Virus record (IMG/VR): IMGVR_UViG_3300037493_001708
Coordinates: 1 to 35,980 of that record
DNA from: a virus
DNA: 35,980 nucleotides
Strand: one strand, 5' to 3'
Part shown: positions 1,225 to 19,659 of the stretch, piece by piece
Position numbering within the stretch: position 1 is the stretch's first letter
How the letters are laid out: each line of letters starts with the position of its first letter
Translations under genes and position numbers: made by a program
Notes under the pieces: model-generated
Databases searched by the model: none
What the model saw: only the letters and a program-made list of their open reading frames with translations
Told to the model about the DNA's origin: nothing

Positions 1225-2001
1225 ATGAATGGAGAATTAATTACACGTGTTCAAGAAACATTAAAAGAGCCTAAACGTAGGTTAAGTGATTTATTTAATT
1301 TGTGTAAAGAGTTGTGCAACCATTCCATAAACGTTAATTGTAGTTCATGTATTACTGAGGGTGTAATATTACTAAGTAATTGGATTAAAAAGAATAACAT
1401 TCAATTAGAAAATAACAGTTATATGACAAAGGCAGCGAATGGGGAATACGAATTAAAGCCTTTAAAATTATACGTACAAGTTTACGAATGTGGAGATATT
1501 GAAAGGCAAAAGGAGTTAGATGCTTGTTTAAAAATTAACAAAGAACGTAAACACATTTACGAAGTTATTGAGATTAAAGAACGTTTAACTTATGCTCAGC
1601 TATTTGAAATGTTATGCCCTAACTCAATTAACATAATAGCTAATTCAGATATTTACTTTGATGAAACTATTTTGTTTGCAAGGTTTATAAACGAGAATAA
1701 CTGCTACGCTTTATCTCGGTGGGATTACCTGGGGGATAAAATGGCGGTATTATTTAATCGTAAAGATTCGCAAGATGCTTGGATTTTTAACGGGAAACCT
1801 AAGATAATTGGCGGTAACTTTGAACAGGGTAAAGCTGGTTGTGATAATCGAATAGCATACGACATAAGACAATCTGGTTACAACGTACTTAATCCAAGTA
1901 AAACAATACACGCAATACATTTACATTTAACTAATTTAAGAACATACAAGGCTACTGAGAAGATTCCTGAGCCTTATCACTTCATTTTCCCACATTTTTA
2001 A
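1225..2001 (+). CDS. Putative GT-A-type glycosyltransferase
   Basis: 258 residues. The central segment contains INIIANSDIYFDETI (about residues 135-149), whose N-S-D-I-Y-F-D resembles the acidic nucleotide-sugar/metal site of GT-A enzymes. It is followed by SRWD, a Q-D-A-W-I-F motif, an F-E-Q-G-K-A-G-C-D-N-R segment and a late N-P-S-K-T-I-H-A-I-H-L-H motif. I recognise this motif series from hypothetical sugar transferases of viruses and environmental bacteria. The N-terminal 60 residues hold four Cys (C27, C31, C39, C42) that could bind metal. It is the first gene of a sugar-modification unit, and the next gene begins 3 bases after it. Confidence 0.6.
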   Translation: MNGELITRVQETLKEPKRRLSDLFNLCKELCNHSINVNCSSCITEGVILLSNWIKKNNIQLENNSYMTKAANGEYELKPLKLYVQVYECGDIERQKELDACLKINKERKHIYEVIEIKERLTYAQLFEMLCPNSINIIANSDIYFDETILFARFINENNCYALSRWDYLGDKMAVLFNRKDSQDAWIFNGKPKIIGGNFEQGKAGCDNRIAYDIRQSGYNVLNPSKTIHAIHLHLTNLRTYKATEKIPEPYHFIFPHF

Positions 2002-2004
2002 AAT

Positions 2005-2937
2005 ATGAAAGTATTACATTTAGGTTTATGTGTTAATCCACATGGTTTTAGTTCATTTCCACACGCTTTTAAAAAGGTGTTAGGTGAAAGTAATTATAGA
2101 GAATTACAATGTAGCAGCGATACAGCATTTAATCCTAATGCAATAGCAATCTTTAACGAGTTTAAACCCGATCTTGTTTTTATGCAAATACAAGCTGAAA
2201 ACATTATTCACTCTCAAACCTGTGAGTACTTTTTAAGTCATGGCGCAAAAGTAATTAATTGGACTGGAGATAAAAGGCACGTAATACCAAATTGGATGAT
2301 TGACATTGCTCCATTTGTTAGCTTAACAGCTTTCAGTAATATGGATGATGTAAAGATGATGCGCCAAATGGGTTACAAGTCAGAGTATTTAGAGATTGGA
2401 TTTGATGAAGAAATATACACTCCACAAGGTGAAGTTTACCCAATACAAGATATTGTTTTCTTTGCTAATAACTATGGTGTTGGTCATTTCCCTATGAGTG
2501 AATATCGTATTAAGTTAGTTCAATTCTTACGTAATAATTACGGAGATAAATTTGGGGTGTATGGTTCAGGTTGGTCAGATGGAAACGGAAACGCTAACCA
2601 TTCACAACACGTGGAGGCTAAATATTTAAGAGGTGCAAAGATTGTAATTAATTGTTCACACTTTAACGCTGAAAGGTATAATAGTGATAGGCTATTAAGA
2701 ACGCTTGGTACTGGTTCATTTTGTTTAAGTGCTAAACATAATGGAATGGAACAAGATTATACTCATCAAGAACATTTAGCCTACTTTAATACGTTTGAGG
2801 AATTAAGGCATAGAATAGATTTCTATTTAGATAATGAACACGAGCGTAAAAGAATAGCTGAGAATGGCAGAAATTTAGTGTTAAATAGAAATACATTTGT
2901 TCATCAAGTTGAAAATATAATTAAATTAGCGGAATGA
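2005..2937 (+). CDS. Glycosyltransferase, GT-B fold (glycosyl transferase group 1 / CgeB-like)
   Basis: 310 residues. The protein has the two-domain look of GT-B enzymes: an N-terminal Rossmann part (MKVLHLGLCVNPHGF, then F-K-P-D-L-V-F-M-Q) and a C-terminal part with V-Y-G-S-G-W, Y-L-R-G-A-K-I-V-I-N and R-L-L-R-T-L-G-T-G-S-F. These match the donor-binding half of the Glyco_trans_1_2/CgeB-like families, including the closing helix with E-R-K-R-I-A-E-N-G-R. Its stop overlaps the next start by 4 bases (ATGA), indicating translational coupling. Acceptor and sugar cannot be read from sequence. Confidence 0.8.
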   Translation: MKVLHLGLCVNPHGFSSFPHAFKKVLGESNYRELQCSSDTAFNPNAIAIFNEFKPDLVFMQIQAENIIHSQTCEYFLSHGAKVINWTGDKRHVIPNWMIDIAPFVSLTAFSNMDDVKMMRQMGYKSEYLEIGFDEEIYTPQGEVYPIQDIVFFANNYGVGHFPMSEYRIKLVQFLRNNYGDKFGVYGSGWSDGNGNANHSQHVEAKYLRGAKIVINCSHFNAERYNSDRLLRTLGTGSFCLSAKHNGMEQDYTHQEHLAYFNTFEELRHRIDFYLDNEHERKRIAENGRNLVLNRNTFVHQVENIIKLAE

Positions 2938-3674
2938 AAACTTTAGGCTTCATGTCAATTCTTTATGGCAAAGAATATTTAAAAGAATCTTTGTTATCAA
3001 TTCGTGACCACGTTGATAAAATGGTAGTTGCTTACACTTATAACCCATCACATGGACACGTTACAAATATTAAATGCCCTGAATCAGTTGATGAAATACA
3101 CGCTATTTGTGCTGAGGTATTAGGTAGTAAGTTAATTTGGGATGAAAGACAAAGCTATCAAGCTGAGAATTTTCATAGGGCAGTTGCACGTGAATACGCA
3201 AGTGGATACGATTTAATTTTAACCATTGATGCTGATGAGGTATTTGAGCCAACAGAAGTGCAAAATGCTTTGAAATATGCTTTTGAAAACAAACAACGCT
3301 ATTACGGAATTAAAGGATATGTAAACTTTTGGAGGTGCTTTGATTTCGCTTGTTACGATGGGTTCAGACCTATAAGAATAGAGAATTTAAGAAACCATAA
3401 CTCACAACAAAATTTAGAATGCCCATTAACCATTTATCATTTTAGCACAGCACAAAGTGAAACAATAACACGCTATAAGTACACAGCATTTGGTCATGCA
3501 AACGAATTAAAACCTAACTGGCTTAATGGTACTTTCTACGCTTGGGACAGAACAAACCAAATAAAAGATTTACATTGTGTGGCTTACAATCTTTGGAACG
3601 CTGAGCCATTTGATAAAACTAAATTACCTGACTTTTTAAAAAAACATATAAATTATAATAAAGAACTGATATGA
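2934..3674 (+). CDS. Glycosyltransferase family 2-like (GT-A, D-x-D)
   Basis: 246 residues. It begins MKTLGFMSILYGKEYLKESL, an N-terminus typical of GT2-like enzymes that act on remote acceptors. T-I-D-A-D-E-V-F-E-P supplies the D-A-D nucleotide-sugar/metal motif near residue 98, preceded by the catalytic-domain pattern A-V-A-R-E-Y-A-S-G-Y-D-L-I-L. A conserved-looking H-x-F region follows. It overlaps the preceding gene by 4 bases. It belongs to the same sugar-modification unit; target unknown. Confidence 0.75.
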   Translation: MKTLGFMSILYGKEYLKESLLSIRDHVDKMVVAYTYNPSHGHVTNIKCPESVDEIHAICAEVLGSKLIWDERQSYQAENFHRAVAREYASGYDLILTIDADEVFEPTEVQNALKYAFENKQRYYGIKGYVNFWRCFDFACYDGFRPIRIENLRNHNSQQNLECPLTIYHFSTAQSETITRYKYTAFGHANELKPNWLNGTFYAWDRTNQIKDLHCVAYNLWNAEPFDKTKLPDFLKKHINYNKELI

Positions 3675-3738
3675 TAGTAGCACACTATCACGTTGGTATT
3701 TTTGAGTACATACATTTTCCACTATTTTATTTTGCCCT

Positions 3739-4218
3739 ATGCAACAATTAAAAGAATTACCGAACCATTGCTTTAACGCTGGTGAACCTTATTACAACTA
3801 CATAGATATGAGTAAGGCTAAAGACAATCAAACCATTATTGATATTGGAACATACAGAGGCTTTAGTGCTTTTGCTTTTGGTTACAATAAAACTAATGAA
3901 GTTCACAGCTTTGATATTGCTGATTATCGTGAGATTGAGTTTCCTAACAATGTAAAGTTTTATAAAAAAGGTGCTTTACAAATACCAAATGAACTAGTTA
4001 AAAAGGCTAACATTATTTTATTAGATGTTGACCCACACGATGGAGTGCAAGAATTTCCTATCTTTGAATACTTAATTGAATGCGGTTTTAAAGGTACTTT
4101 AGTTATAGATGATGTAATGTTTAACGAAGGAATGGAAAAGTTCTACGATTCAATTCAATACAATAAATACCTTTGCTTTTGGCATCATACAGGAACGGGA
4201 ATAGTAAATATAAAATAA
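3739..4218 (+). CDS. Class I SAM-dependent methyltransferase (small-molecule/sugar type)
   Basis: 159 residues. I-I-D-I-G-T-Y-R-G-F-S-A-F-A is motif I (SAM-binding glycine loop, about residues 34-47). H-S-F-D-I-A supplies the acidic residue after beta-2, and I-I-L-L-D-V-D-P-H-D plus T-L-V-I-D-D-V match the later strands of the Methyltransf_24/macrocin O-methyltransferase-like group. Placed among glycosyltransferases, it probably O-methylates a sugar. The ATG is preceded by TTTG and CCCT, a near-match to the leaderless promoter arrangement seen elsewhere, but the A of the TA is displaced. The 64-base gap before it holds only a 26-codon open frame starting at 3671. Confidence 0.75.
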   Translation: MQQLKELPNHCFNAGEPYYNYIDMSKAKDNQTIIDIGTYRGFSAFAFGYNKTNEVHSFDIADYREIEFPNNVKFYKKGALQIPNELVKKANIILLDVDPHDGVQEFPIFEYLIECGFKGTLVIDDVMFNEGMEKFYDSIQYNKYLCFWHHTGTGIVNIK

Positions 4219-4219
4219 T

Positions 4220-4819
4220 ATGAGTTTAGCAGCTGTTATTGTTGATACTAGAAATGTAAGTTTATTCCAAGTAATAACTGAGCATTTATATTTTTTACCA
4301 AAAGATACAAAACTTTATATTTTTAGTAGTGAGAACCAAAGGCATTTACAACAATTATTAAAATGTGAGTTTCATGTGGTGGATATTAATAGCATTGGTG
4401 ATTATAATAATTTGCTTACAAGTAAATCGTTTTGGGAAAAAATAGAGGAAGAAAATGTACTGATATTTCAAGAAGATAGCAGGTTATTACGCAAAGGAAT
4501 AGAGGCATTTTACGAGTGGGATTACGTAGGGGCATCATGGAAGTTCCCTCCATTTGTTGGTAATGGAGGTTTATCATTTAGGCATAAGTCTAAAATGATT
4601 GAGATAATTGATAGCATTAGTTGGACTGGTGAATTAAACGAAGATATTTACTTTGCTTATGGATGTCAAATGTTAAATTTAAAGTTAGCACCCATTTTAA
4701 TAGCTAATAAATTCAGCGTTGAAACTCAATTTCATCTAGGTTCGATGGGCTTTCACGCTATTGATAAATGGTTAACAGAAGAACAGGTAAAACAAATAAA
4801 AAAACAATATGAAGTTTAG
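4220..4819 (+). CDS. DUF5672-like putative glycosyltransferase
   Basis: 199 residues. A-A-V-I-V-D-T-R at the start, V-L-I-F-Q-E-D-S-R (about residues 90-98), W-D-Y-V-G-A-S-W, N-G-G-L-S-F-R and N-E-D-I-Y-F-A form the ordered motif set I associate with DUF5672, a family found in glycan loci. The Q-E-D-S and N-G-G-x-S-F-R motifs look like donor and acceptor elements of a GT-A-like fold. It starts one base after the methyltransferase stop and overlaps the next gene by 11 bases. Confidence 0.7.
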   Translation: MSLAAVIVDTRNVSLFQVITEHLYFLPKDTKLYIFSSENQRHLQQLLKCEFHVVDINSIGDYNNLLTSKSFWEKIEEENVLIFQEDSRLLRKGIEAFYEWDYVGASWKFPPFVGNGGLSFRHKSKMIEIIDSISWTGELNEDIYFAYGCQMLNLKLAPILIANKFSVETQFHLGSMGFHAIDKWLTEEQVKQIKKQYEV

Positions 4820-5135
4820 ATTAAAAAAAGAGTTTCAAAACTCACAGATTTTTTGTAAAGACAAAAGCGGTAACGAGGTTTTAATTACCTCAGCGGATTT
4901 TAATGATTATTTTGCTGAGTTAATGTTAGCTAACAATCAAGGTCATTTGATTGAACTAAATGCTATGTATGAGCAAATGCTTATCGATGAAAAAAAAACT
5001 TTTCAAAAAGTTACGGAAGATGTTATTGCATTAACTTACGAGCCTCTACCGACCGACTTGAAACCACAAAAAGAAATGCCAAAAAAGAGAGGGTTACGTT
5101 CAGACGCTGGGAAGCCACGAACACAGAAGGCATAA
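4809..5135 (+). CDS. Small basic-tailed hypothetical protein; upstream partner of a frame-shifted GT25
   Basis: 108 residues in the frame of the ATG. The first 60 residues form a compact domain (K-E-F-Q-N-S-Q-I-F-C, then G-H-L-I-E-L-N), and the C-terminus is Lys/Arg/Pro-rich. I do not recognise it confidently. From 4990 to 4998 the gene has a run of nine A. Downstream of that run the -1 frame encodes a GT25 N-terminus that has no start codon of its own. Two products are therefore possible: this 108-residue protein, and a 264-residue fusion. Both frames look protein-like in the overlap. Confidence 0.6.
   Translation: MKFRLKKEFQNSQIFCKDKSGNEVLITSADFNDYFAELMLANNQGHLIELNAMYEQMLIDEKKTFQKVTEDVIALTYEPLPTDLKPQKEMPKKRGLRSDAGKPRTQKA
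4990..4998 (+). other. A9 homopolymer: candidate -1 frameshift or phase-variation site
   Basis: In the zero frame the codons are GAA AAA AAA ACT, giving the slippery form A AAA AAA. A -1 slip continues as AAC TTT TCA and enters the GT25 frame, which stays open to the stop at 5602. The -1 frame is closed by TGA at 4988-4990, so it can only be entered here or by a non-standard start codon. Confidence 0.55.
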
Positions 5136-5602
5136 GTCAAACAACTTATTTAAAAGCTACTGAGATAGCTGCATTGCGTAGCCATAAGGCAATACTTGAA
5201 CACTCTTTAAGCGAAGGTTTGGAGAGTGTTTTTATTATTGAAGATGATGTTGATTTTACTGATAACTTTAAACAAAAGTTAGTTAAATGTTTAGCTGAGT
5301 TACCTCATGATTGGGATGGGCTGCATTTAGGAGGTGAAAGTCCAAATGGGTCGTTATTACATTACTCACCTAACTTATTTAAGTGCCTTGCATCGTGGGG
5401 CGGTTATGGTTATATCGTGAATAAAAGGGTAATTCCTAAACTTATTGAGGCTATAAGTCAAGAAAAGATGCCAGTTGATACTTACTACGCTCGAATGATG
5501 CCTGAGATGAAGTGGTATAAATCAAAAGAAATGCTAGTTAAACACCTTGCAGGTTATTCCACTATACAAAAAAAACATGTTGATTACAAACATTTGTATT
5601 AA
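4997..5602 (+). CDS. Glycosyltransferase family 25 domain (frame entered by -1 shift)
   Basis: The open frame encodes a classic GT25 layout: C-Y-C-I-N-L-R-A-S-T-D-R-L (the family's INL...R start), then F-R-R-W-E-A, then E-I-A-A-L-R-S-H-K-A-I, then F-I-I-E-D-D-V-D-F with the catalytic-type E-D-D, and G-Y-I-V near the end. A TTG at 5174 would give only 142 residues and cut off the INL and RWEA motifs, so it is probably not the real start. No ATG, GTG or TTG precedes the INL motif in frame, which points to synthesis as a fusion with the 4809 gene (63 plus 201 residues). It may transfer a sugar to LPS or to a virion protein. Confidence 0.75.
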   Translation, partial: NFSKSYGRCYCINLRASTDRLETTKRNAKKERVTFRRWEATNTEGISQTTYLKATEIAALRSHKAILEHSLSEGLESVFIIEDDVDFTDNFKQKLVKCLAELPHDWDGLHLGGESPNGSLLHYSPNLFKCLASWGGYGYIVNKRVIPKLIEAISQEKMPVDTYYARMMPEMKWYKSKEMLVKHLAGYSTIQKKHVDYKHLY

Positions 5603-16633: not shown

Positions 16634-17275
16634 ATGAAAATACTAAATTTATACGCTTGTTTAGGTGGCAACCGATACAAATGGAATGAAGTAAATAACG
16701 ATATTGAAGTAACTGCTATTGAACTTGACCCCGAAGCTGCACGATTATATAAAGAGCGGTTTCCAAATGATAATGTAATTGTAGCAGATGCTCACCAATA
16801 TTTGTTAGACCACTTTAAAGAGTTTGATTTTATATGGAGTTCACCGCCTTGCCCTAGTCATAGTAGAGCAAGGTTTGCCCGTAAAAACACAACATCAGCC
16901 ATTTACCCTGACTTAAAACTATATGAAGAAATAATATTTTTACAAAATTATTTTGAAGGTAAATATTGCATTGAAAATGTTATACCATACTATGAGCCTT
17001 TAATACCAGCAAAGAAAATAGGTAGGCATTTATATTGGACTAATTTTTCTATACCAAATGATTTAGGAGAAAGAAAACATAGTATAATGGAATCAAAAGA
17101 CGAAGTAAGCAAGTGGTGTGAATTTCACGATTACGATTTTAGAAAGTATAAAGGCGAACAATCAGTACAAAAAATGGCTCGTAACTTAGTAGATTATGAA
17201 GCTGGGAAAACTATTTTTGAAACTGCATTAGGAATAATTAAAAAAAGTAAATCAACACAATTAACATTAATATAA
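16634..17275 (+). CDS. DNA (cytosine-5) methyltransferase
   Basis: 213 residues, short for the family. N-L-Y-A-C-L-G-G-N is a divergent motif I. A-I-E-L-D-P-E-A-A supplies motif II. W-S-S-P-P-C-P-S-H-S (P72-C73) is the catalytic Pro-Cys motif IV, and I-E-N-V (E114-N115-V116) is motif VI. The compact size suggests a small target-recognition region. There is no cognate nuclease, so it is probably an orphan phage methylase for restriction evasion. First gene of the rightward early region, with the helix-turn-helix gene 6 bases downstream. Confidence 0.88.
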   Translation: MKILNLYACLGGNRYKWNEVNNDIEVTAIELDPEAARLYKERFPNDNVIVADAHQYLLDHFKEFDFIWSSPPCPSHSRARFARKNTTSAIYPDLKLYEEIIFLQNYFEGKYCIENVIPYYEPLIPAKKIGRHLYWTNFSIPNDLGERKHSIMESKDEVSKWCEFHDYDFRKYKGEQSVQKMARNLVDYEAGKTIFETALGIIKKSKSTQLTLI

Positions 17276-17281
17276 ACAAAT

Positions 17282-17464
17282 ATGAAACTATCAGAGGAAC
17301 ACGTTAAATACTACGATCTAAAAAAAGTACATGGCTCACAAAAAAAGCTAATGGCACTATGTGGAGTTAAATACCAGTCCACAATGTCAGAAATACTTAA
17401 AGGACATCGGCACGTTGCCCCTGCTAAAATTGGGGTTATTATTGACTATCTTAATGGGTTGTAA
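17282..17464 (+). CDS. Small Cro-like helix-turn-helix regulator
   Basis: 60 residues. The span H-G-S-Q-K-K-L-M-A-L-C-G-V-K-Y-Q-S-T-M-S (about residues 17-36), followed by E-I-L-K-G-H-R-H-V, has the layout of Cro/CI-type DNA-binding helices with the recognition helix around residues 30-38. Position next to the operator-bearing divergent promoter and behind a methyltransferase makes it the best candidate for the ATAACGTTAT-binding repressor. Its TAA stop (17462-17464) lies inside the TAAC of the first cassette-like element. Confidence 0.7.
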   Translation: MKLSEEHVKYYDLKKVHGSQKKLMALCGVKYQSTMSEILKGHRHVAPAKIGVIIDYLNGL

Positions 17465-17588
17465 CGATCCGCCGCTTGTAGCAGTTGGGAAAAATAAGCC
17501 AAGACATTAAATTAATAACTAATAAAACCAAGTACAAAATGGAGATTGAATTTAAGACTGATACCCAATTGCTACAAACGGCTGTTAG
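17461..17588 (+). repeat. Cassette-like recombination element 1 (attC-like fold)
   Basis: GTAAC (17461-17465), five bases, then the arm GCCGCTTGTAGCAGTTGGG (17471-17489); a 74-base loop; then CCCAATTGCTACAAACGGC (17564-17582), one base, GTTAG (17584-17588). The arms match at 17 of 19 positions. Two other elements share the same order and size but have different stems. The upstream stop codon lies in the TAAC, and the start codon of the next gene (17539) lies in the loop. Confidence 0.8.
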
Positions 17589-18264
17589 CACTTGTACGGG
17601 TAATTTACTTGAACTTTTTGCAGGTTCTCGATGTATGGGGCAAGAAGCCGAAAGTTTAGGAATGAATGTTTTTTCAGTTGATTGGACAAATTACGAAAAT
17701 ATAGATTTATCAATTGATATTGAAAATTTGAATAAAGAACAAGTTCCATTTATACCAAGCCACGTACACGCTTCGTTTGATTGCACAACTTATACTATTG
17801 CTGCAATAAGCACTCATAGAAATGGAACAGAACCGAAAAGCGAATATGCTAAAAAATGCGACAAGGTAAATCAACACGTAATTTCATTAATTAAAGATTG
17901 GTTAAAAATCAATCCTAAAATGACTTTTACTTTTGAAAATCCAAGAGGAATGTTAAGACATATGCCGTTTATGCAAGAATTTACAAGGCACACCGTTTGG
18001 TATTGCCAATATGGAGATGATAGAGCAAAACCAACAGATATATGGACTAATTTAAAAAATTGGAAACCAAAAGAAATGTGCAGAAATTACAAATATGATA
18101 AAGATGGAAATATCATTGATAAACATTGCCACCACGAAAGCGCAAGACGTGGAGCAAAAACAGGAACGCAAGGTAAAAAAGGAAGTTACGAACGATCTAA
18201 AATGCCAAAACAATTATGTCACGACTTACTGAAATCGTCTTTAGAAACGATAAACGTAGTATAA
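17539..18264 (+). CDS. Phage cytosine-C5 methyltransferase-like protein
   Basis: 241 residues from the ATG at 17539, chosen over an upstream TTG at 17485 because AAAA precedes it. L-L-E-L-F-A-G-S-R (residues 23-31) is SAM-binding motif I. F-D-C-T-T-Y (80-85) replaces the usual P-C motif while keeping the Cys. E-N-P-R-G (133-137) replaces E-N-V. The rest (H-T-V-W-Y-C-Q-Y-G-D, K-P-T-D-I-W-T-N, K-T-G-T-Q-G, G-S-Y-E-R-S-K-M-P) follows a distinct phage Dcm-like family. Residues 1-15 are encoded inside element 1 and GTT AGC gives V16-S17. The stop is 3 bases before the outer arm of element 2. Confidence 0.8.
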   Translation: MEIEFKTDTQLLQTAVSTCTGNLLELFAGSRCMGQEAESLGMNVFSVDWTNYENIDLSIDIENLNKEQVPFIPSHVHASFDCTTYTIAAISTHRNGTEPKSEYAKKCDKVNQHVISLIKDWLKINPKMTFTFENPRGMLRHMPFMQEFTRHTVWYCQYGDDRAKPTDIWTNLKNWKPKEMCRNYKYDKDGNIIDKHCHHESARRGAKTGTQGKKGSYERSKMPKQLCHDLLKSSLETINVV

Positions 18265-18267
18265 GTG

Positions 18268-18393
18268 CTAACGTTTACGGCTTGGCGAAGTGGGGGAATT
18301 ATACCACAAAAGCCGATTAGAATTACTAATGTTAAATAACAGATAAAAGATGATAGAAAGCAGTCAGCCCCCATTTTGCCAAACCGATGTTAG
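18268..18393 (+). repeat. Cassette-like recombination element 2 (attC-like fold)
   Basis: CTAAC (18268-18272), GTTTA, then CGGCTTGGCGAAGTGGGGG (18278-18296); a 71-base loop; then CCCCCATTTTGCCAAACCG (18368-18386), AT, GTTAG (18389-18393). The arms match at 16 of 19 positions. Two of the three differences are G-T pairs. The bases before CTAAC (AAGTG) complement those after GTTAG of element 1 (CACTT), not those after its own GTTAG. Confidence 0.85.
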
Positions 18394-18661
18394 CGGTAGT
18401 ATAAATGTTACAGCAGGTCGGAATGAAAGATATAGACAAGTTCATTCAAATTCAAAATGGTTTGATAGTTCAGAATACTTTATAATAAAAGACGATTTGG
18501 AATGTATAACGATTAAAAAATGTGGATTACAAATTCCTAAAAATGCCCAGAAATTCACATCGTCTCGACATTTTATGTATGTATCTGAATTGCCATTAGG
18601 TAGATTTGAATTTGATGTTGAGGAAAGTTCGGAGGATGAGTTGGTGATATATTACCGCTAA
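18350..18661 (+). CDS. Hypothetical protein in a gene cassette
   Basis: 103 residues. The ATG lies in the loop of element 2 with AAAAG before it, and the first 13 codons are element sequence, leading into GTT AGC (V-S) at residues 14-15. The cassette-specific part is beta-rich (E-Y-F-I-I-K-D-D-L-E-C-I-T-I-K-K, then G-R-F-E-F-D-V-E) and unrecognised. No alternative ATG exists in frame before residue 70. The TAA stop is inside the CTAAC of element 3. Real function unknown. Confidence 0.55.
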   Translation: MIESSQPPFCQTDVSGSINVTAGRNERYRQVHSNSKWFDSSEYFIIKDDLECITIKKCGLQIPKNAQKFTSSRHFMYVSELPLGRFEFDVEESSEDELVIYYR

Positions 18662-18782
18662 CGGTTAACGCTTGTGGCAGTGGCGATTTGGAACACTACA
18701 CTTGCTTGGCAGATAAAAATAAAATTGAAAAACAAAACTTAATATAAACCACAGACCGCCATTGCCTACAAGCGTATGTTAG
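18658..18782 (+). repeat. Cassette-like recombination element 3 (attC-like fold)
   Basis: CTAAC (18658-18662), GGTTA, then ACGCTTGTGGCAGTGGCG (18668-18685); a 71-base loop; then CGCCATTGCCTACAAGCGT (18757-18775), AT, GTTAG (18778-18782). One arm is a base longer, giving a single bulged base like the extrahelical base of attC sites. The outer flank TACCG before CTAAC complements CGGTA after GTTAG of element 2, across the intervening gene. Confidence 0.85.
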
Positions 18783-18797
18783 TGGCTGGTTTTAAAA

Positions 18798-19103
18798 ATG
18801 ATTGCGATGGAAATATCAAAACCAATAAGCCCGAAAGATACAGAGCGAGAGCCTGAATATGATTTGAATAAGGCGATAGAATACATAAATTCAAAATTAA
18901 TACTTAGAGATTGGCATGACCAAATATTTGAACAATGGAAAGGGTATCATGCCATAATTCTATCGCCTTATGGGGCATACATTAAAGTGATGGATAGAGT
19001 TGTAGAGAAATTCAAATCAGAAGGGTGGGATTGCAAATGGAGTAGCGCTTATGATGCGAGAGGCCCACATTATTGCTTCTACGTGAGCGAGAGCCATTTT
19101 TAA
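18798..19103 (+). CDS. Hypothetical cassette protein
   Basis: 101 residues. Unlike the two preceding cassettes, this gene has its own ATG after the GTTAG (with TAAAA before it), because a stop codon blocks the frame from the element. A second ATG lies 9 bases later. The sequence is mixed alpha/beta with many aromatics (W-H-D-Q-I-F-E-Q-W-K-G, then E-G-W-D-C-K-W-S-S) and ends H-Y-C-F-Y-V-S-E-S-H-F. No family recognised. GTTAGTGGC before it and GCCACTAAC after it (19109-19117) form the cassette ends. Confidence 0.6.
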   Translation: MIAMEISKPISPKDTEREPEYDLNKAIEYINSKLILRDWHDQIFEQWKGYHAIILSPYGAYIKVMDRVVEKFKSEGWDCKWSSAYDARGPHYCFYVSESHF

Positions 19104-19108
19104 AACTT

Positions 19109-19128
19109 GCCACTAACTACTCGCTAAC
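19109..19128 (+). repeat. Left half of a fourth cassette element (truncated array end)
   Basis: GCCACTAAC (19109-19117) is the exact complement of GTTAGTGGC at 18778-18786, closing the third cassette. A second CTAAC follows at 19124-19128. I find no matching second arm downstream. A GTTAG at 19237, inside the next gene, lies at about the right distance but its flank does not pair. The array therefore seems to end in a broken element. Confidence 0.55.
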
Positions 19129-19402: not shown

Positions 19403-19634
19403 AGTACGATAAAGTACAAAAGTACGATAAAAAGCTACTATTACCCCCTACTATAAGGGAACATATTGTGTGTGTGTATATTTATGTATATTTACACAAA
19501 CGCAAAACTTTTTTTACAATTTAACATTTAAAAGCTGAAAATTATCGTACTATCGTACTTTTATGCTTGTAACCATTGTAAACATTATATTTTTATCAGT
19601 ACGATTTAAGTACACTAAAAAAAATTATCGTACT
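19403..19634. other. Candidate replication origin with six iterons (AGTACGAT / ATCGTACT)
   Basis: The 8-mer AGTACGAT occurs at 19403-19410, 19421-19428 and 19598-19605, and its complement ATCGTACT at 19544-19551, 19552-19559 and 19627-19634. Extra half-sites AAGTAC lie at 19412-19417 and 19608-19613. Between the groups is a very AT-rich stretch with a TGTGTGTGTATATT tract, a plausible unwinding element. The 473-base gap has no gene and is followed by the primase-helicase, the classic arrangement of a phage or plasmid origin. The iterons could instead be operators for the primase promoter. Confidence 0.65.
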
Positions 19635-19659
19635 TTGTATTTTGTATTATAATATTTAT

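Follow-up and report, generated by a model that had tools for sequence, protein, structure and literature searches.

An integron-like array of hairpin-led gene units in a Flavobacterium-type phage, probably served by a host recombinase

Bacteroidota are regarded as a phylum in which integrons are rare. The hallmark of an integron is a tyrosine recombinase, IntI, encoded next to an attI site at which single-gene cassettes enter to form arrays; each cassette carries an attC site at the 3' end of its ORF, an imperfect hairpin with L and R boxes and with crossover at the G|TT of GTTRRRY (inverse RYYYAAC). In one survey, Salinibacter had the only complete integron recorded for Bacteroidetes proper (PMC9024848), and Bacteroidota were not among the taxa covered by published attC models (PMC8352920). 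Phages are known to harbour CALINs, groups of at least two neighbouring attC sites without an integron integrase, of which Qi et al. (2023, PMC9892861) described 17, tied to classical IntI; IntI1 can use some of these phage sites. A third point of reference is the XerA/XerC/XerD-dif system with its 28-bp dif-like sites.

The DNA considered here, referred to as the window, is the whole 35,980-nucleotide stretch of an IMG/VR record. It represents one phage with a 127-bp direct repeat at both ends, which indicates that the genome is probably complete, and Flavobacterium phages are its relatives. It very probably harbours a distinct integron-like array of a Flavobacterium-type phage, with an attI-like 3' end and with units of hairpin plus gene that are driven by a host recombinase.

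The array of the window phage

From 5' to 3' the array consists of hairpin 1, a methyltransferase ORF, hairpin 2, a 103-aa ORF, hairpin 3, a 101-aa ORF and finally CCACTAACTACTCG. Three attC-like elements had been marked in the initial annotation, and all three were recovered in place, as listed here with their scores under a covariance model of the family (R1).

16634-17464: C5-methyltransferase-like gene and small repressor-like gene, 5' neighbours of the array
17462..17588, plus strand: attC-like hairpin element 1 (TAAC ... GTTAG), R1 83.6 bits; boxes TAAC 17462-17465 and GTTAG 17584-17588
17463..18269, plus strand: cassette 1, element 1 with a DNA methyltransferase gene (PHROG 757); limits set from the TAAC|G breakpoints of other arrays
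17539..18264, plus strand: methyltransferase ORF, which begins inside the element 1 loop and reads through the right arm and GTTAG
17584..17593, plus strand: start box GTTAGCACTT, pairing with end box AAGTGCTAAC (18263-18272) of the same cassette
18268..18393, plus strand: attC-like hairpin element 2, R1 100.4 bits; boxes CTAAC from 18268 and GTTAG from 18389
18270..18659, plus strand: cassette 2, element 2 with the 103-aa ORF
18350..18661, plus strand: ORF of cassette 2 (leader MIESSQPPFCQTDVSGS), which begins inside the element 2 loop and has its stop codon TAA within the next CTAAC
18389..18398, plus strand: start box GTTAGCGGTA, pairing with end box TACCGCTAAC (18653-18662)
18658..18782, plus strand: attC-like hairpin element 3, R1 97.8 bits; boxes CTAAC from 18658 and GTTAG from 18778
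18660..19114, plus strand: cassette 3, element 3 with the 101-aa ORF (18798-19103)
18778..18786, plus strand: start box GTTAGTGGC, pairing with end box GCCACTAAC (19109-19117)
19110..19123, plus strand: array terminus CCACTAACTACTCG, which looks like the first half of the attI-like site in chromosomes (CCACTAACTACTTTATA in locus L402, for instance)
19805: primase-like gene, 3' of the array

The arms of the window elements measure ~19 bp and are paired nearly end to end (89% for one computed inverted-repeat pair). At its 3' end the array carries CCACTAACTACT, similar to the AACTnnYTTATA site of bacterial chromosomes (see below), and from this resemblance the terminus at 19110..19123 is likely a platform site or the remnant of one. 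There is no transposase among the cassette ORFs of the window, an Rfam search of the array region returned nothing above the gathering score, and no relatives of cassette 3 were found in viral contigs. An empty site at the exact window locus was sought in phage relatives and none was found; the loci compared contain no homologue of the two flanking small genes.

Elsewhere in the window, the stretch before the primase gene (19404-19636) contains AGTACGATAA / TTATCGTACT several times over, in direct and inverted copies that perhaps form a replication origin or an operator. The coding region of cassette 3 contains a perfect 15-bp inverted repeat (18868-18882 / 18957-18971, with 74 bases between), and a run of genes at 1225-5602, its ORFs read by eye only, resembles glycosyltransferases or sugar-modifying enzymes.

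A family of folded sites and the boxes around each gene

The window elements are members of a large family of hairpin sites of ~120-127 nt. A pattern built from element 2 matches at least 120 viral contigs, and when 1.2 Mb of related viral DNA was searched for TAAC-arm...arm-GTTAG, the yield was 30 sites per Mb per strand, compared with 0 in shuffled sequence. The length of the elements is near-constant, with a modal distance of 122 between TAAC and GTT. That the stems differ while their pairing is kept, as had been proposed from the three window elements, is borne out by an alignment of 36 elements in which 19 of the 20 stem pairs covary, with changes on both sides, and the covariation score reaches 0.703 versus 0.17 after shuffling and at most 0.13 after sliding. 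The proportion of paired cells (88%) leans high because the aligned elements were selected for pairing; the extent of compensatory change is not accounted for by this selection alone. A G.T pair is conserved on the coding strand in 34 of the 36 sequences. Judged from their sequences, the gene-adjacent box GTTAGnnnnnGT and the in-stem box GCTTGnnnnnGT resemble each other and are arranged as an inverted pair, which would be expected for two half-sites bound by a recombinase. The core boxes are GTTAGCA, GTTAGCG and GTTAGTG in the window, and GTTATGC, GTTACCA and GTTGTGT occur elsewhere.

The same site stands in front of unrelated genes, one of the checks suggested at the outset: a near-identical copy of element 2 precedes differing genes in 12 viral contigs, and element 2-type sequence is found before at least seven kinds of gene, with identity stopping at GTT. 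By reading, the genes behind the shared leader are mostly methyltransferases. In cellular genomes R1 matches 149 of 198 Bacteroidia (the class of Flavobacterium cheongpyeongense as grouped by the search tool, with scoring limited to the top 16 candidates of each genome), and none of 143 Gammaproteobacteria genomes, the class of Vibrio anguillarum, which was itself included and has a true IntI. Among 20 mixed non-Bacteroidota genomes there was one weak match, in a Sulfuricella MAG (G219; L297, contig C19). It was considered as a bridge to proteobacterial attC sites and rejected; the contig is AT-rich and Bacteroidota-like, and was thus judged to be probable binning contamination, i.e. a Bacteroidota contig probably binned in error.

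Each gene is flanked by boxes that are matched to each other and not to the boxes of the neighbouring genes. In 35 consecutive pairs, nearly all of them taken from viral contigs, the bases after GTTAG agree with the reverse complement of the bases before the next TAAC at a mean of 4.0 of 6 positions (2.6 +/- 0.16 expected; 0 of 2000 shuffles reach 4.0), position 11 is almost always a mismatch, G against A, and pairing resumes beyond it. The complementarity across the gene that had been described for the three window genes is correct, and it extends past this fixed mismatch. For 33 phage units, 30 from isolated phages and the 3 of the window, the match amounts to 6.58 of 7 against 3.35 +/- 0.23, a value that leans high since the box helped to choose the element end; the mismatch at position 11, present in 31 of the 33, is unaffected by this choice. 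Matching of this kind across the gene is what a circular intermediate would produce, as in a circle both half-boxes would flank the hairpin.

The hairpins of phages also seem to be used as a portable translation start. Read-through ORFs of at least 60 codons follow 50 of 116 viral elements versus 7 of 113 chromosomal ones. When the start triplet was permuted, ATG gave 50 compared with 36 for GAT, 22 for AGT and 9 for GTA; the excess over some of these controls is only moderate, and the contrast between viral and chromosomal elements together with the shared leader is therefore the better evidence for a start in the hairpin. The leader of the second window ORF recurs in 12 viral contigs, and relatives of the methyltransferase that lie outside cassettes, up to 92% identical, start at their own ATG just past the hairpin-coded leader.

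Mobile units and the chromosomal recombinase

Rows of 10-15 such units are found in virulent Flavobacterium phages from the Baltic, described by Nilsson et al. (2020, PMC7077304) in a paper whose main text contains neither 'integron' nor 'cassette'. Across ten phages the same units recur in differing number and order, through permutations, gains and losses. The clean presence or absence of single units that had been anticipated for close relatives is seen, for example, between mumin9-1 and mumin6-3, which differ by one clean 506-bp unit and are otherwise >99.8% identical over the 9.5 kb compared; the junction left by its absence reads TAGCGGT-TAACGTT-ATCAGG. The hallmarks of a transposable element are absent, since no target duplication accompanies gained or lost units beyond the shared TAACGTT and, as noted, the cassette ORFs of the window include no transposase. 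The breakpoints fall in TAAC|G, which defines the mobile unit as a hairpin and its downstream gene, and chromosomes show the same, a 1.44-kb unit that is common to genomes G002 and G096 (97.4% identical) running from TAAC to TAAC. Variation is also found where the array ends: the units adjoining the constant, attI-like AACTACAATATTACATG site differ between most of the ten phages, with an extra unit or units at this site in the comparisons of filifjonk9-1 with mumin9-1, snusmum6-1 with mymlan6-1 and lillamy9-3 with sniff9-2. In some cases the element alone has been exchanged among phages, which one simple unit does not explain.

Plating differences between the Baltic phages and their hosts were linked by the authors to a missing methyltransferase, LMO9 phages without one such gene plating poorly on LMO6 (PMC7077304). 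Among these phages (L427-L436), mumin, filifjonk, tooticki, mymlan and sniff9-2 have an 893-bp unit with a methyltransferase gene (U8), which lillamy9-3 lacks.

The window phage has three sites within 1.4 kb and no gene for the enzyme that would act on them; a PF00589 search found no such gene in it or in six isolated array-bearing phages, in keeping with the annotation's remark that no integrase was visible. In Bacteroidia chromosomes, by contrast with the phages, the arrays adjoin a ~390-aa tyrosine recombinase. The expected proximity of chromosomal arrays to a recombinase of this class was found on a broad scale, with 117 element matches in 54 recombinase loci (773 kb) versus 0 in the 16 Xer-like loci of the first genome set (288 kb, ~10 kb around the genes), and when 14 flanks of the best recombinase were retrieved blind to arrays, 8 had elements. 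The arrangement is largely uniform: among 34 loci with elements the nearest one lies 3' of the recombinase in the opposite, convergent orientation in 28, and 5' in the same orientation in 5. About one third of the recombinase loci have no element nearby, and most of these reach a contig end within ~1 kb, as is expected beside repeats. A relative of the recombinase query at E 1e-50 occurs in 100 of the 198 Bacteroidia genomes, fewer than the 149 with elements, so that some arrays may be relics or may use another enzyme. In a second recombinase clade (L262, L267, L424, L425, L426) the array lies 5' of the gene and points the same way, and AACTnnYTTATA is missing; this clade perhaps represents a second architecture of the same system.

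The recombinase is devoid of the insertion (patch) that is specific to IntI. The spacing from GKGxKxR to LRHSF is 72-73 residues in 44 members of the family versus 114-115 in two true IntI, and the protein aligns to IntI4 in two parts. In the 16 survey genomes, eleven of which were seen to have elements, no protein reaches the cut-off of the integron-integrase profile TIGR02249; each has tyrosine recombinases that match this profile in part or in two parts, while the true IntI of Vibrio and Sulfuricella score 482-494 bits across its full length. The best NCBIfam match, NF040815, is just below its cut-off, and in a tree the family stands apart both from IntI and from the genomes' own Xer proteins, some key branches being weakly supported. 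The distinct system with a host recombinase that the initial annotation had considered is supported; judged by the usual criteria, the enzyme falls outside the integron integrases.

An attI-like site completes the chromosomal loci. AACTnnYTTATA is conserved in 36 of them beyond the 3' end of the recombinase gene, at a median distance of 106 bp from the stop codon, and runs straight into a variable nnnnnTA. This variable half was compared with the start box of the last cassette in 21 loci and matches it at 4.48 of 5 positions, compared with 1.79 +/- 0.24, so that it marks the point at which a cassette was joined.

A cassette would accordingly consist of a ~120-nt imperfect attC-like hairpin followed by one gene, in an array that ends 3' at an attI-like site. 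Cassettes would be joined and released when strands are exchanged within the box TAAC|G / G|TTA, a site-specific reaction that leaves the halves of a cassette's own box on either side of its gene, where they stay complementary. With no recombinase in the phage, a host enzyme presumably serves the array, most likely the ~390-aa recombinase found beside the same arrays in Bacteroidia; this relative of IntI and XerA would bind the folded site and exchange strands at G|TT. Circles of hairpin plus gene could be released or inserted; new cassettes would enter chiefly beside the attI-like site, and excision and re-insertion would be open to all of them. The hairpin loop of phage cassettes would often supply the start codon and translation start, the arm encoding an N-terminal leader. 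The folding of single-stranded DNA, the circles and the action of the enzyme are proposed from the likeness to integrons, and as to cargo, the many methyltransferases fit a role in protection against host restriction.

Relation to integrons and other readings

Like integrons, the system combines arrays of single-gene cassettes with a tyrosine recombinase encoded beside an attI-like site, next to which cassettes enter, and it has imperfect-hairpin sites with L and R boxes and a crossover consistent with G|TT. It differs in that the recombinase lacks the ~42-aa IntI insertion and falls below the integron-integrase cut-off, GTTRRRY (inverse RYYYAAC) is replaced by a GTTnnnnnnnG(T) box that has a fixed mismatch, the hairpin lies 5' of its gene and not at the ORF 3' end, and the array lies 3' of the recombinase and convergent to it, with the attI-like site 3' and not 5' of the recombinase gene. 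Measured against a strict definition of the integron, an attI-like site and attC sites kept in structure more than in sequence are present, whereas the IntI patch, GTTRRRY and a 3' attC are absent; the system works like an integron without being a strict member by the tests made. The original description of attC-like cassettes consequently stands in its integron-like character, which covariation, matched boxes and breakpoints support, and has to be reversed in its polarity, with the hairpin at the 5' end of the gene and the breakpoints in the left TAAC box. Phage CALINs are alike in being attC arrays without an integrase, in virulent phages, with methyltransferase cargo and with one example from a Bacteroidota phage (P12002L); different are the Bacteroidia-wide site family, its own recombinase, the attI-like site in phages and the live variation among isolates. 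The R1 model has no match in P12002L at E 0.01, and a shorter hairpin of similar build lies there between two genes (L276 38879-38937, minus strand). With XerA/XerC/XerD-dif the catalytic part of the recombinase is shared, but most members have an extra N-terminal stretch, and the sites are ~127-nt hairpins in arrays instead of 28-bp dif-like sequences, with none near Xer genes (16 loci).

An ordinary integron fragment, a CALIN whose sites are used by classical IntI as are other phage attC sites, would have the same kind of architecture (boxes, stem, G|TT) and the precedent of published phage CALINs and of phage attC sites recombined by IntI1, one of them from Polaribacter phage P12002L (PMC9892861). 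We nevertheless regard it as unlikely: the 16 survey genomes, element-bearing ones included, offer no protein at the level of TIGR02249, the arrays adjoin patch-less recombinases, R1 finds nothing in Gammaproteobacteria that include a Vibrio with true IntI, and the polarity of the cassettes is inverted. If units were swapped by homologous recombination through similar hairpin repeats, no dedicated recombinase would be needed; the elements do share sequence, phages of the same host could co-infect, and some alignment blocks stop within shared arm sequence. The exact junctions, however, share only ~7 bp (TAACGTT) while the remainder of the two elements differs, the boxes at the gene ends remain matched, and a recombinase and an attI-like site accompany the arrays, all of which makes this account improbable and somewhat more so than the CALIN.

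The least probable reading, to which we give very little weight, takes the hairpins for RNA control elements, signals of translation or termination whose repetition reflects regulation and not mobility. The G.T pair of the coding strand, the start codons in loops and the frequent read-through of the arm in viral compared with chromosomal elements would suit it, yet it leaves the matched boxes, the TAAC|G breakpoints, the permutation of units and the link to a recombinase unexplained, and as a sole function it is contradicted by the unit differences among isolated phages. A secondary role of the hairpins in expression is compatible with the integron-like reading.

The integron-like reading can be extended beyond the phage. 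It is likely, though less firmly held than the account of the window itself, that a second kind of integron is spread throughout Bacteroidia, characterised by a patch-less recombinase, inverted cassettes and a translation start in the hairpin, and that virulent phages keep an attI-like platform, borrow the host enzyme and in this way change their anti-restriction genes. The literature searched consisted of open-access papers and yielded no description of such a system; a widespread and undescribed integron-like shuffling system of Bacteroidota and their phages is apparently at hand. A cassette system in most of the sampled Bacteroidia genomes would alter how the movement of genes through a dominant phylum is seen, and it would suggest that recombination of folded sites is possible without the IntI insertion. 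In virulent phages, a working cassette platform would explain the clean coming and going of single methyltransferase genes.
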